From NCBI RefSeq assembly GCF_018873765.1, contig NC_057918.1, positions 12,594,862 through 12,658,861 of the forward strand: DNA of 64,000 nt, in the 5' to 3' direction. Numbering within the stretch: position 1 is the first letter of the stretch; the number at the start of each line of letters is the position of its first letter. Source of the stretch: Telopea speciosissima. Its lineage: Eukaryota; Streptophyta; Magnoliopsida; Proteales; Proteaceae. Position numbers and translations under genes: made by a program. This document shows, in pieces, positions 12,256 to 51,440 of the stretch. Below the pieces are notes generated by a model, which was given only the letters and a program-made list of their open reading frames with translations, had not been told where the DNA came from and searched no databases.

Positions 12256-12486
12256 AAGGGGAATTTCCTAGATCTATTTAGATTAAAAAAAAATTTACAA
12301 AACCAGTAACTGTAAATTTTTTTTACATTTATAAGTTACTTGATTTAAAAAGATTTATCAAACTCCCATGTAAATAAAAGAAATTAAATGAATAATCCAA
12401 AATGTCCCCAATATCCTTCTCTCTCTCTCCTTTTTCTTCGATGGAACCAACTACTTCCTCCTGCAACCACTCCCTTGATATCCCGC
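12256..12486 (+). repeat. Left terminal inverted repeat of LEA-capture element
   Basis: Starting at GGGGAATTTCCTAGATCTA, this ~230-bp arm matches the reverse complement of about 13166-13410. Shared stretches include TTACATTTATAAGTTACTTG, GATTTAAAAAGATTTA and GATGGAACCAAC. The two arms differ by scattered substitutions and short indels, so the element is not recent. The outermost motif GGGGAAATTTCC recurs near 13600-13628, so the exact right border is uncertain. No matching target duplication was found. Confidence 0.8.
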
Positions 12487-12576
12487 CCCACCCTTCTCCT
12501 TGCAAACCTGCCTTGTACTACCACCTCCACCGTCAGCCACCCCTAAAATTTCATCTTCGTCTTCATTAGTGCTGGG

Positions 12577-12626
12577 CACGTGTCTTTCAGCGATGGCGCC
12601 ACCTGCTTCTCGTGGCACCTTTATAT
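12577..12626 (+). promoter_or_regulatory. ABRE/G-box and TATA-like motif upstream of LEA-like ORF
   Basis: CACGTG at 12577-12582 is embedded in CACGTGTC, the form of the abscisic-acid response element common in LEA promoters. A TTTATATCC motif follows at about 12619-12627, some 75 bp before the ATG at 12703. The arrangement fits a captured seed/ABA-type promoter, but activity is not shown by sequence. Confidence 0.45.
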
Positions 12627-12702
12627 CCCAGTGGACGAGACAGGGAGGGAAGAACACTCAAGGTAGTTTAACTTTCCGATTTGCAGAAGCCAAAACCAAA
12701 CC

Positions 12703-13277
12703 ATGGCAGCGAGTTATCTAGCGTCATTGCTCAATCTGTCTAAGGCCTTCCCTCGAAAACCTTCTCTTCAAGTTTCACCCACTGGCAAGATCTCAAGGTT
12801 TTGCTTCGCCTCTGCTTCCAAATACTCTGAGGTAAAGACTCTTATTATATGTATTATCCAACAGCGTTTCTGTTCAAGTATGTGATCCATTTAGTTGCTG
12901 ATGACTTGCTGTGTGGAATGAAATTTTGGCAGCAAAATCGAAATGCAACAGAAGAAATGTAAGAATCAGATGCTTACATGTCAAAAAAGACAAAGGATTC
13001 ATTGAGAGAAGCAAGCGATAGGGCATCCGATATGTCCGAAAGGCCGAAGGAGACAGTGAAGGAAGGGGCCAAAAGGGTGAAAGAAACAGCAAAAGAGAAA
13101 GCAAGGGAGGTTAAGGATACCACGAGGGAAGTGGTAGATAATATGAAGGAGAAGAGCAAGCAAGGAACGGAGGGGGATCAGGGGAGTGGTTGCACTGTTG
13201 CAGGAGAGAGTGGTTGGTTCCATCGGAGAAGAAGAAGGAAAGAGAGAAAGATGTTGGGGGTATTTTGGGTTATTCAT
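12703..13277 (+). pseudogene. Captured mitochondrial LEA-like gene, broken by an in-frame stop
   Basis: Exon 1 (12703-12831) encodes 43 residues starting MAASYLASLLNLSKAFPRKP, a mitochondrial-presequence-like N-terminus ending ASASKYSE at a GT donor. The next exon starts at 12933 after TTGGCAG, in the same phase. It reads QNRNATEEM, then TAA (12960-12962), then ESDAYMSKKTKDSLREASDR and a Lys/Glu/Thr-rich amphipathic repeat typical of group-3 LEA proteins. The upstream and downstream parts are collinear and in one frame, so one codon change explains the break. An internal ATG at 12978 leaves a ~100-residue ORF without the presequence. Its C-terminal tail, from about GSGCTVAGES onward, is encoded by the right terminal repeat. 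The whole lies between ~230-bp inverted repeats. An unusual but functional short LEA ORF remains possible. Confidence 0.65.
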
Positions 13278-13410
13278 TTAACTTCTTTTACTCACATGGG
13301 ATTTGGTAAATCTTTTTAAATCAAGTAACTTATAAATGTAAAACATAATTTATAAGTACTGGTTTTGTAAATCTTTTTTTAATCTAAGTAGATCTAGGAA
13401 ATTCCCCCTT
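13166..13410 (-). repeat. Right terminal inverted repeat of LEA-capture element
   Basis: This is the reverse-complement partner of 12256-12486, ending AGATCTAGGAAATTCCCCC. It contains the end of the LEA-like ORF (about 13176-13277), so that tail is transposon-derived sequence. Confidence 0.8.
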
Positions 13411-47387: not shown

Positions 47388-48546
47388 GGTGGGAGTGTAA
47401 CGATGATTCAAGAGTCCGATCAAATGGTCACTTCAACGATGAGCACAGGTGAAGGAAAACTTTCGAGGATGTAGAAACATGGGAAATGCTGAGCCCGCTT
47501 GATAACCTTACGAGAAACAGTTTTTTGTTTTTGTGTTTTTTCGTTCTGAGAAACGGAAAAACACCTAAAAATCGTTTGATAACGAAGTGTTTTTTGTGAT
47601 TATTTTTGGAAACATAAATCAAAATTTATGCTCCCTGGAAGACTTTTCTTGGTTGAAAATTGGAAAAATGTGCCCGATAAAAACTCCTATATTCGTTCAC
47701 TATGCTCTTTTGTAAAATTCGAAAAATGTGCCAAACATATCTTTTTGTTAACTTTAAAAAAAAAAAAAAAAAGGTTTTGCTTGTTTTCAAGAACAGGTTT
47801 ACCAAGCGGGTCAAAAACGGTTTCTCAACACAGAAAATGAAAAAAACTGTTTTGTTGTTTCTCAGCACATAATCAGAACAGAAACACCCGTAACGTTTTC
47901 AAACGGGCACGCTAATTCCACTTCCACTTTTGCTAGGTAGCCACTCCCCAAGTTAATATTAGGCAAAAATCGTTTTCTTTCTCCTCACCCCAATCCATTT
48001 TTTTTTGTCATCCATTATTTATAATTAATAAAAGGGAGAGGGTGCAGGGTTTGGCACGCCCACTAACTTTCTTGGGGCTAGCGGCTGTGCCAATGGAGAG
48101 TGTGGGATGTAGAGGGCAGGGGATCATTTCCATTGCGGTGTGAAAGGACTCAGGCTGGGCAGAACCCCGGTGTGCCCAATCTTTACCCTTGATAAAAATT
48201 ATGAGGTTGGAATCTACCGGTAATCAACTCAGCAAGCAATTGTCTTGAAGTACTATATTTGATCAATACATAAAAAAAACTCACATTTTATCCTAATAGG
48301 CTAGTATGCCAAATCAATTGAACCGCAACTTGTTCTTAGGCTTGACGATCACGGGTGTCAAAGCCTAGCCCAAGCCGGTAACATCGATCGAAACGACAAA
48401 AAAAAAATTTGGATCGAACTGAATCGATCTTCATCGGATTGATTTTGGACTTGGGTATGATGGGACCAGATGAAAATCAGACCATACTGAACGGCTCGAT
48501 ATCCAAACCGAAAATTGGATCAAATGAAACCAATAAAAAATTGAAT

Positions 48547-50758
48547 GGAAAAATTACTTGTACACCCCTTAGGCTATTGTTCCTTTTTGGGAAAATTTCA
48601 CGAACACCCCCTAAAAGTATCCAATATCTCAAAAACTTACCATACTTGGCCAAAATGTCACAGACACCCCCTATTTGTATGAATTTATTTCAATTTAGTC
48701 CACTCCGTTAGTCTCTGCAGTTAAGTGTCTGTTAACTTTTTTAAATGGTGAAATTACCCTTACCACAGTGAAATCCCTATAATACCCTTAATGATGAATT
48801 AATGATGTTAGAAGTTAGTTTTTAGAAAAAGACAATTTTGCCCTTGTTTTTATTCAATATTTTTTTTTATTCCTTTTTTCTCCCCTTCTTCTCCTTCTCC
48901 TTCTGTTGTTTCTTCCGCCGCCACCACCACCACCGCCACCCCCTCCAGCCCTCCTTCTATGTCCGCACAATTTCCTCCCCATTTCTTTGCACCACAATCG
49001 AGAATGGATTCCAGAGAGATTGAAAAAAAATGATGGCAGCTAATGGATTTTGATTCTGTGTTGGGTTTGGAAAAATGGGAATAAAAGAAAAGAAATAGGG
49101 ATCCGATGGTTATTGGAAGGGAAAATGGAAAAGGAAATCAAAGACATGATGGGATCAGAAATGATAAATTAGTTGAGGATGGGTGTGGTCATGGCTGGAA
49201 TTCAGATTGGGGTTTTGTTTAGACAAGGATGTGGGTTAGATTACAAGTGAAAAGAAATGGAGAGGAGAATCGGTGATGGTGGGATGAGGGTTTTTAGAAT
49301 GAAAATGATTAAAAAAAAAAATAAAGAGAAAAGAATAGAGATGAAAGGAGAAATAGGGGTTATTGGAGATGATGGCGGTTTTAGCAGAGATGGGTTTTGA
49401 GAGAGGGTCGGTGATGGGGTTTCGGAAATGGAAGATGTATTTGCCTTGTTTTGTCGCCCTTCTTCAGTTCGCTTTCAGCCATGGGTGGAAATGGAAGTCC
49501 GGTCATCTTCTCGTTTTGTCGCCCTTCTTCAGTTCGCTTTCTCCTTGCCTTGCCGCTGGTAATGGTCACCGTAACCGAAGCAGGTGATGGTCACCAGAGC
49601 CGGTGCCATAGAGGGAAGAAGATGAAATGATAATTTTGTCCTTTTATTTAAATAACTAAGGGATAAAATGAATATTTCACCTTTGGGTACTAACTGTGCT
49701 TAACGTTTGGGGTGTCTGTGAAATTTTCCCTTCCTTTTTTCAATACCTCTCATTTTTCAAAACCATACTTGAACACCCCCTCCATTTTACTATTTCAGTA
49801 TTTCTTAGTCAATCACCATTTAGTGATGACATCATAAGTTAGAAAAATCCTAAATACCTAAATTACCCTCCAAGACTAGTGAAGTGACCATTTTACCCTC
49901 TTCTTCTTCCTGCAACACAAAAACTAGCAGAGGTGACAAATATTGAGATAACTGCTTCCCTGTTCAGTAGGAAAAACCTGCAATTGAAAATCCAAAACCC
50001 AGCCCTAGGGTTTCACTTTACCGTTTATTGGCACCATCGGTGTAGCTCGGTGAGGCAACTTTACCTTTTCGAGGTTAGGAAGATCCGACCATTCTCTCTC
50101 TCTTCTCCGGCGGTGACCCTCTTCATCTCTGCTGCTGCTCCTCCAGTGGTGACGGTTGAAGAGATTCTTCTCGCTGTTCTTGTGTTTGTGATTTTATTCG
50201 TACCTCAATCATCTCTCTCTTCCGATCTTGGTTTTCAAGGACCACCAATTCTGAACACTGGAATGATCGGTGAGGGCGTGAAACCATGGAAGACGGGATA
50301 CAAAGAAGAAGAGAGATTGGAGCCAGAATTAGAGCATGTAAAAGCTTGAAGAACCCCTTCATAATCATCTCTCTTCCGATCTAGAATTTCTTCTTGGTCT
50401 CTTAGCTCCATTGATAGATCACCGTCCCCTGTGAAAGCTTTGAAGAACCCCGAAATGTTTAGTGGTTTGGGTGGATTTTTATTGAGATTTGAACCATTTT
50501 GGGGTTCTGGTTTCACTTTATCTGTTTCTTTATTCAAAGCTAACTTCCAACTTGAAAAATGTTATTTGGGTGACCTGGGCATTTGAGGGCAAGTGTAATT
50601 TTACTTCACAAGTTTCAATTGAAATTGTGACAAGGGTAAAATGGATTTTTCCATTCAACCACTAACATAGGTTTCAGCTAGTGTCAAGTAATTGTTTAAA
50701 AAGATTGGTGTATTAAGAAAACGGGCAATAGTCTAAGGGATGTACAAGAAATTTTCCC
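48547..50758. mobile_element. Outer Mutator-like element (non-autonomous), interrupted
   Basis: The left end starts GGAAAAATTACTTGTACACC. The right end, reverse-complemented, starts GGGAAAATTTCTTGTACATC. The first 33 bases match at 29 positions. If the inner element (48589-49730) is removed, the left arm continues in parallel with the right arm for about 60 more bases, e.g. CAATACC against TAATACACC and ACTTGAACAC against ACTTGACAC. Flanks read AAAATTGAA at the left and AAAATTGAG at the right, an imperfect 9-bp target duplication with a 1-base offset. The interior (49740-50690) has no recognised coding; a frame at 50123-50368 (-) has no known relative. Confidence 0.8.
48589..49730. mobile_element. 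Inner Mutator-like element with perfect 9-bp target duplication
   Basis: Ends are GGGAAAATTTCACGAACACC (left) and the complement of GGTGTCTGTGAAATTTTCCC (right). The flanking 9 bases TTCCTTTTT are identical at 48580-48588 and 49731-49739. A 9-bp duplication is the signature of Mutator-superfamily insertion. A second copy of the end-like motif, AAAATGTCACAGACACCCCC, lies inside the left end (about 48652-48671). The interior holds pyrimidine-rich and (CCACCG)-type sequence; the open frames there are low-complexity and unrecognised. No transposase is present. It sits inside the left terminal repeat of the outer element and is therefore younger. Confidence 0.9.
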
Positions 50759-51440
50759 AAAATTGAGTAATAGGTTATGAATACGTGAATTGATTATCGG
50801 TTGATGCTATAAGAGGAACTATTATAAATTAATGAGTATGAGGTCATGAATATGAAAATTGATATGTAAGAATGTTTCCTTTGATCTCCTTGTTTACTAT
50901 ACAAAATTAGTTGGACATTTAATTGAATGATTTGATAATAAGGTTCATTGTGTGATTCCAATATTAGATATTTTCTCATCCATTGATTTCAATATTAGTA
51001 ATAGTCCCCTTATAATGATAAACAATGATTTCGGCTACAAACTCTATTCATCTATTGATTTCAATATTAGTTATCTTCACCTTGGAATTCAGTCCTCTCA
51101 TTCCAATTACAATATGAACATATCAGATCAATTTATCTATTCTTGGTTGTTTACTTGTTCGACTTGGGAAGATAATTTAAAGTGTTTTTATCAAATATTT
51201 CCTCACTATATAAGTTATGAATGTACGATTTCATTACGGTTTAAACCCGAAAATAGATCAATCTAAACCAATATGAACCCGATACTAAAAAGCCAAAATA
51301 AACCAAACCAATTATTTCCTTGCTATAGGTTATGAATGAAAGATTTCATTATGGTTGCGAATTCTTTGCCCAAAGCACCGAGAAACTCGAAGAACTTGAC
51401 ATGTGGGAAGAAACTCTATAACATTGAGGAAAAGTATATC

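Follow-up and report, generated by a model that had tools for sequence, protein, structure and literature searches.

Nested non-autonomous Mutator-like elements in a plant genome, very probably formed by two successive insertions

Nested insertions are a recurrent feature of plant Mutator-like elements (MULEs). In the available part of one survey, they are reported for 191 of 530 candidate coding MULEs in maize (36%) and for 195 of 476 in rice (41%); the elements surveyed there are transposase-coding TIR-MULEs with TIRs of 100 to 500 bp (PMC3903597). A target-site duplication of 9 to 11 bp is used for MULEs in the accessible sections of PMC3310237, which also propose, as one origin of tandem-TIR MULEs, a nested insertion whose inner duplication was then lost. 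Pack-MULEs are treated in the portion of PMC8277862 at hand as internal sequences that are duplicated and flanked by MULEs, and gap-filling and template switching are discussed there. The locus described here resembles the plant non-autonomous MULEs with nested insertions in its TIRs, its duplications of about 9 bp, and its nested transposons. It is an ordinary case of nesting between non-autonomous MULEs, useful for a few details of its structure, and events of this type are common in plant genomes. It lies in a stretch of 64,000 nucleotides (C3:12594862-12658861 of the 823-Mb host assembly; hereafter the window), of which the region 48300-51000 was read in detail.

Structure of the locus

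The borders of the two elements, their arms, and their duplications are collected in Table 1. Once the insert and one duplication are subtracted, the outer element is 1061 bp long, and the insertion point of the inner element is 42 bp into its left TIR. The inner element starts with GGGAAAATTTCACGAACACCCC, and its opposite end is an inverted match at 20 of 22 bases. Its left TIR has a copy of the end motif at either limit, one terminal and one subterminal, seen as a direct repeat of 48592-48620 at 48652-48680. The end sequence is GGGAAAATTTCACGGACACCCC in the inner family and GGGAAAATTACTTGKACACCCC in the outer family. A preliminary description of this DNA had reported the inner element with an exact 9-bp flanking duplication, and all nine bases agree. 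It did not include the 9/10 duplication that we find around the outer element.

Table 1. Coordinates in the window of the two elements and their parts
Feature	Position	Strand	Basis
Outer target-site duplication, left copy AAAATTGAAT	48537..48546	.	9/10 match to 50759-50768
Outer target-site duplication, right copy AAAATTGAGT	50759..50768	.	9/10 match to left copy
Outer non-autonomous Mutator-like element, interrupted	48547..50758	+	Ends, duplication, genomic relatives with 9-bp duplications
Outer left TIR, part before insertion	48547..48588	+	Contains left copy of inner duplication
Outer left TIR, part after insertion	49740..49776	+	Aligns with outer right arm and other outer-family arms
Outer right TIR (~75 bp)	50684..50758	-	Other copies have a further, inverted match to query 945-1019 at their far end
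Inner target-site duplication, left copy TTCCTTTTT	48580..48588	.	Exact match to 49731-49739
Inner target-site duplication, right copy TTCCTTTTT	49731..49739	.	9/9 match to left copy
Inner non-autonomous Mutator-like element, 1142 bp	48589..49730	+	97.3% identical to a consensus from 20 copies elsewhere in the genome
Inner left TIR, full 82 bp	48589..48670	+	Corresponds to positions 1-82 of the family arm
Inner right TIR, contracted to 22 bp	49709..49730	-	Alignment with other copies: 60 bp missing after 49727
Interior common to inner element and a third MULE family with unrelated TIRs	48954..49447	+	94.9-96.2% identity to L066-L077

We examined how far the window itself supports this arrangement. 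Exact 9-mers at the inner spacing occur at 2 of 62,840 window positions, the inner pair being one, and matches of at least 9/10 at the outer spacing occur at 2 of 61,768 positions, the outer pair being one. With the insert and one duplication removed, the outer arms align with a local score of 80, compared with a mean of 27.8 and a maximum of 49 in 2000 shuffles. This alignment is gapped and covers 79 bases of one arm and 78 of its partner; in its first 41 bases, the left arm matches the reverse complement of 50718-50758 at 34 of 41 positions. The alignment of the arms claimed in the preliminary description is therefore real, although its length is about 80 bp and not about 100 bp. Past the insertion point, the remaining part of the arm has a score of 28, which was reached by 2 of 500 shuffles when the alignment was anchored there and by 67 of 2000 when it was not, so that the in-window support for this half is only moderate. 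When the alignment was continued into the inner element rather than across the insertion point, the score was 0. For this half of the arm, the comparison with other outer-family arms in the genome, given below, is decisive.

The 22-bp end motif, with up to three mismatches, occurs four times in the window, precisely at the four ends, and 0.11 occurrences are expected by chance. Because the pattern was derived from those same ends, this count is evidence of specificity and not of independent discovery. Scans of the window with Rfam (gathering thresholds) and for tRNAs gave no matches, and a search of viral contigs found no exact occurrence of the end pattern. Elsewhere in the window, several exons with SPX and EXS domains (Pfam) lie on the minus strand at 18800-44000, which appear to be a cluster of PHO1-like genes, and a Rubisco-methyltransferase-type domain and pieces of an O-fucosyltransferase (Pfam) are also present; these domains are in keeping with a plant host. 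Another inverted-repeat pair, with TAGATCTATTTAGATT ends and 1128 bp from end to end, occupies 12269-13396 and is flanked by the near-identical 9-mers GGAATTTCC and GGAAATTCC.

The two families in the host genome and the order of insertion

In the genome search for the inner family, the best 40 of 1752 candidates were scored, and the copy number obtained is therefore a lower bound. The scored places comprise the window, 27 other inner copies, and 12 members of a third family; all 39 places other than the window were examined. The inner family, the younger of the two at this locus, is a still fairly uniform non-autonomous Mutator-like family with a TIR of 82 bp, and the consensus of 20 copies is identical over its first 82 bases at both ends. 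Among the matches listed, exact 9-bp duplications stand at the family ends in 15 of the 27 other copies. As a control, mismatched left and right flanks were paired over all 28 copies, the window included, and were exact in 2 of 756 pairings, because two copies (L026 and L059) have one duplication in common. The starts of these two are separated by about 4.6 kb, and their interior segments differ at 1 aligned position; the two are likely one insertion, copied by local segmental duplication, rather than two insertions. The remaining 12 copies are without an exact duplication at the nominal border, and 4 of them (L011, L023, L062, and L064) have no recognisable arm. Relative to the consensus, the window copy lacks 67 bp of interior after 48979. 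Scanning the 200-base flanks of the 27 other copies for the pattern of MULE-type ends gave none (0/27); thus, no preference for nesting was seen.

The outer family is diverged and heterogeneous. For a 1019-base query, the best 40 of 825 candidates were scored; the four best-scoring relatives are 76 to 83% identical over 235 to 401 query bases, and the matches below these four are mostly to arms only. We examined 29 outer loci, of which 9 have both ends within reach. Among these 9, the flanking duplication is 9/9 in three (L030, L032, and L054), 8/9 in three (L038, L044, and L053), and weaker or shifted in three (L039, L042, and L045). In a tenth copy (L046, extended as L078), the ends are 2700 bp apart and the 9-bp flanks match at only 7/9. 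Three outer-family arms on C11 (L047, L055, and L056) have identical 12-base flanks and are probably a single insertion multiplied through local duplication. At L033, two more MULE-type ends (GGGAAATTTTCACGTACCTCCCC and GGGAAAGTTTGTGTACC, at 1276-1337) adjoin the outer-family copy, possibly as another nested or abutting element.

The outer-family arms were then compared with the window at the point of insertion. For this, 32 arms from 23 of the 29 outer loci were aligned to the window arm holding one copy of TTCCTTTTT; left and right types were pooled, since the filter was loose. Across the 9-bp site and six bases on each side, where the window has the insert, 28 of the 32 arms are gap-free. 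The other 4, one arm each of L032, L038, L040, and L058, are deleted at the site, and no insert at the 9-bp site was found in any of the 32 arms aligned. As the 28 arms run continuously across the insertion point, they are usable as related empty sites, and nesting is thereby established independently of the similarity of the arms within the window. The preliminary description had placed the inner insertion inside the outer left terminal repeat, and both the arm alignment and the 28 gap-free arms uphold this. Its relative ages, with the inner element younger than the outer, are supported as well, and the genome search found other copies with 9-bp duplications in both families.

In the account that we favor, an older non-autonomous Mutator-like element, the outer one, would have inserted first, with a target duplication of about 10 bp. 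Later, a member of the inner family would have inserted 42 bp inside the outer left TIR and duplicated TTCCTTTTT. Both steps would be cut-and-paste events, carried out by MULE transposases encoded at other places in the genome. We are confident of this two-step nesting of non-autonomous Mutator-like elements, with the inner younger than the outer. Counting against it are the 12 inner copies without an exact duplication, the outer duplication, which spans 10 bp with a mismatch and is not a clean 9, the 7/9 flanks of the tenth outer copy, and the failure to find an autonomous partner with these ends. We rejected dating from the divergence of the arms: the two arms of a MULE can differ already when it inserts, and here one of them is contracted.

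Alternative readings, arms, and interiors

The locus could instead be a single element with multiple (tandem) TIRs that moved as a unit. Two arms with the same start do stand 42 bp apart on the left side, and the accessible sections of PMC3310237 describe tandem-TIR MULEs from tomato, Arabidopsis, rice, and maize. However, the inner copy here has its own exact 9-bp duplication, and the same sections exclude nesting for the tomato elements because their internal TIRs have no such duplication. The inner unit is moreover found at 27 other loci, none of which has a MULE-type end in its 200-base flanks, and outer arms occur without the inner unit. The end-motif scan of the window gives no second TIR on the right, and in the families as sampled, neither the flanks of the 27 inner copies nor the 32 outer arms hold a two-element structure with a different outer duplication. 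We consider a single tandem-TIR element highly improbable. A chance resemblance of AT-rich sequence might also be considered, since the duplications are T- or A-rich and 67 of 2000 unanchored shuffles reach the score of the arm half beyond the insertion. Copies of both families with the same borders occur elsewhere in the genome, and the chance reading, already refuted by them, is next to impossible.

The right end of the inner element bears on a further alternative. In the family, the end motif occurs twice in direct orientation in the right arm, at a spacing of about 60 bp, and 19 of the 20 other inner copies aligned (all except L011) have this arm in full; the window copy is without 60 bp of it. 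In what is left, the subterminal motif contributes its inner half and the terminal motif its outer half, and since the latter is retained, the true cutting end is kept. The borders in the preliminary description are thus correct insofar as the outermost right bases match the family, but the right arm is atypical. It might be argued that this end is a new border, made when the transposase cut at the subterminal motif copy and not at the true end, because the arm stops after one motif and its bases CACAGACACCCC match the family's subterminal copy. Yet at its outermost bases, GAAATTTTCCC, the arm agrees with the true end of the family, and the subterminal copy reads GACATTTTGACC in 14 of the 20 other copies. 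A deletion that fused two motif halves, the inner half from one copy and the outer half from its partner, suffices and leaves the cutting site unchanged, and the same kind of joint (GGGAAAATTACTTGGACACCCCCTGAAACC...) is carried by an outer-family copy with an 8/9 duplication (L038, 308-350). We regard a displaced cut as very unlikely.

With the true end retained, a deletion between the two motif copies would have shortened the right arm of the inner copy, before or after its insertion. A broader proposal, which we put forward tentatively and hold to be rather doubtful, is that the two-motif arm is a contractible module, in which recombination between motifs repeatedly shortens one arm, leaves the cutting end in place, and yields copies that may still move. 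The inner copy in the window and L038 would then be two independent cases, and nesting of related MULEs could seed the exchange of arms and interiors between families.

A third MULE family has part of its interior in common with the inner element. Its 12 loci among the 40 scored places (L066-L077) match the inner element at positions ~387-859 only, plus, mostly, a short piece at positions 366-400. Their TIRs are about 240 bp long, and their ends are of the GGGTAATTTACACATACC or GGGAAATTTACACATACC type. Exact 9-bp duplications are present in 5 of the 12 (L066, L067, L068, L069, and L074), and partial ones in others (8/9 in L072 and L075 and 7/9 in L070); L076, at 1/9, has none, and in L071, L073, and L077 one or both ends were out of reach. 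The shared interior of about 0.5 kb is 94.8% identical between L009 (353-904) and the L066 unit (693-1231). Its mean identity between the families is 96.2%; among the 28 sequences of the inner family it is 95.5%, and among the 12 of the third family it is 97.3%. A tree of the interior does not separate the two families cleanly, and only 2 alignment columns are diagnostic. An interior shared at 95 to 96% under unrelated TIRs suggests recent capture or exchange between MULE families; we infer that it may have been transferred between them, or captured by both, shortly before both spread. A literature search on the exchange of interiors between MULE families found no matching paper.

We also compared the ends of the inner and outer families. 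The start common to both, claimed in the preliminary description, is confirmed as GGGAAAATT, and both families also have ACACCCC in their ends. Between these shared blocks, the inner family reads TCAC and the outer family CTTG, and the subterminal motif copy about 60 bp inside follows its own family's type in both. As this block differs at the terminal and the subterminal copies alike, it appears likelier that the transposases are related but not the same, or that a single lineage has two types of end, than that one identical enzyme acted. Three open reading frames (ORFs) of more than 100 amino acids that touch the elements were scanned and had no match in Pfam. At least 150 places in the genome have a MULE domain over the family's cut-off (the best 150 of 827 candidates), many of them in long open frames. 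None of these places was linked to the ends of either family, and mobilisation in trans by related transposases, as proposed in the preliminary description, is putative. Four outer loci were extended and have 12 ORFs of 120 amino acids or more, of which 8 were scanned; none of the 8 contained a MULE domain, 5 had retroelement-type domains, and 3 had no match. One of these loci (L080) is without any such ORF. Judged by their sequences, both elements are probably members of the Mutator superfamily; this assignment is made from the ends and the duplication length only, because no autonomous partner with these ends was found. The duplications are 9/9 for the inner element and 9/10 for the outer, and TIRs common to family members measure 82 bp and about 75 bp, respectively. 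Among the matches listed, no plant MULE paper printing these end sequences was found by title.

Comparison with described MULEs

The two outer TIRs make up about 15% of the 1061-bp outer element, and an insertion into one of them is therefore not remarkable. The value of the locus lies in its being a well-resolved example, in which both insertions can be ordered and the nesting is fixed by related empty sites. The analysis also gave three defined MULE families in a plant genome, and the contracted arm and the shared interior are small leads on the origin of short MULE arms and of chimeric MULE interiors.

Unlike the coding MULEs in the available part of PMC3903597, both elements here are short, no transposase was found in them, and their TIRs are about 75 to 82 bp long. 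These lengths are below the 100 to 500 bp of the long-TIR elements in that part of the survey and fall between its TIR-MULEs and its short-TIR type. Compared with the MULEs described there, the guest at this locus is itself another MULE and is located within a TIR. The locus is like the tandem-TIR MULEs in having two TIR-like arms in tandem at one end. It differs from them in that the inner duplication is intact on both sides and the arms come from different families, which argues that it is not a tandem-TIR element. Finally, there is a likeness to Pack-MULEs: one interior of about 0.5 kb, whose capture from a gene is putative only, stands under two unrelated types of TIR.
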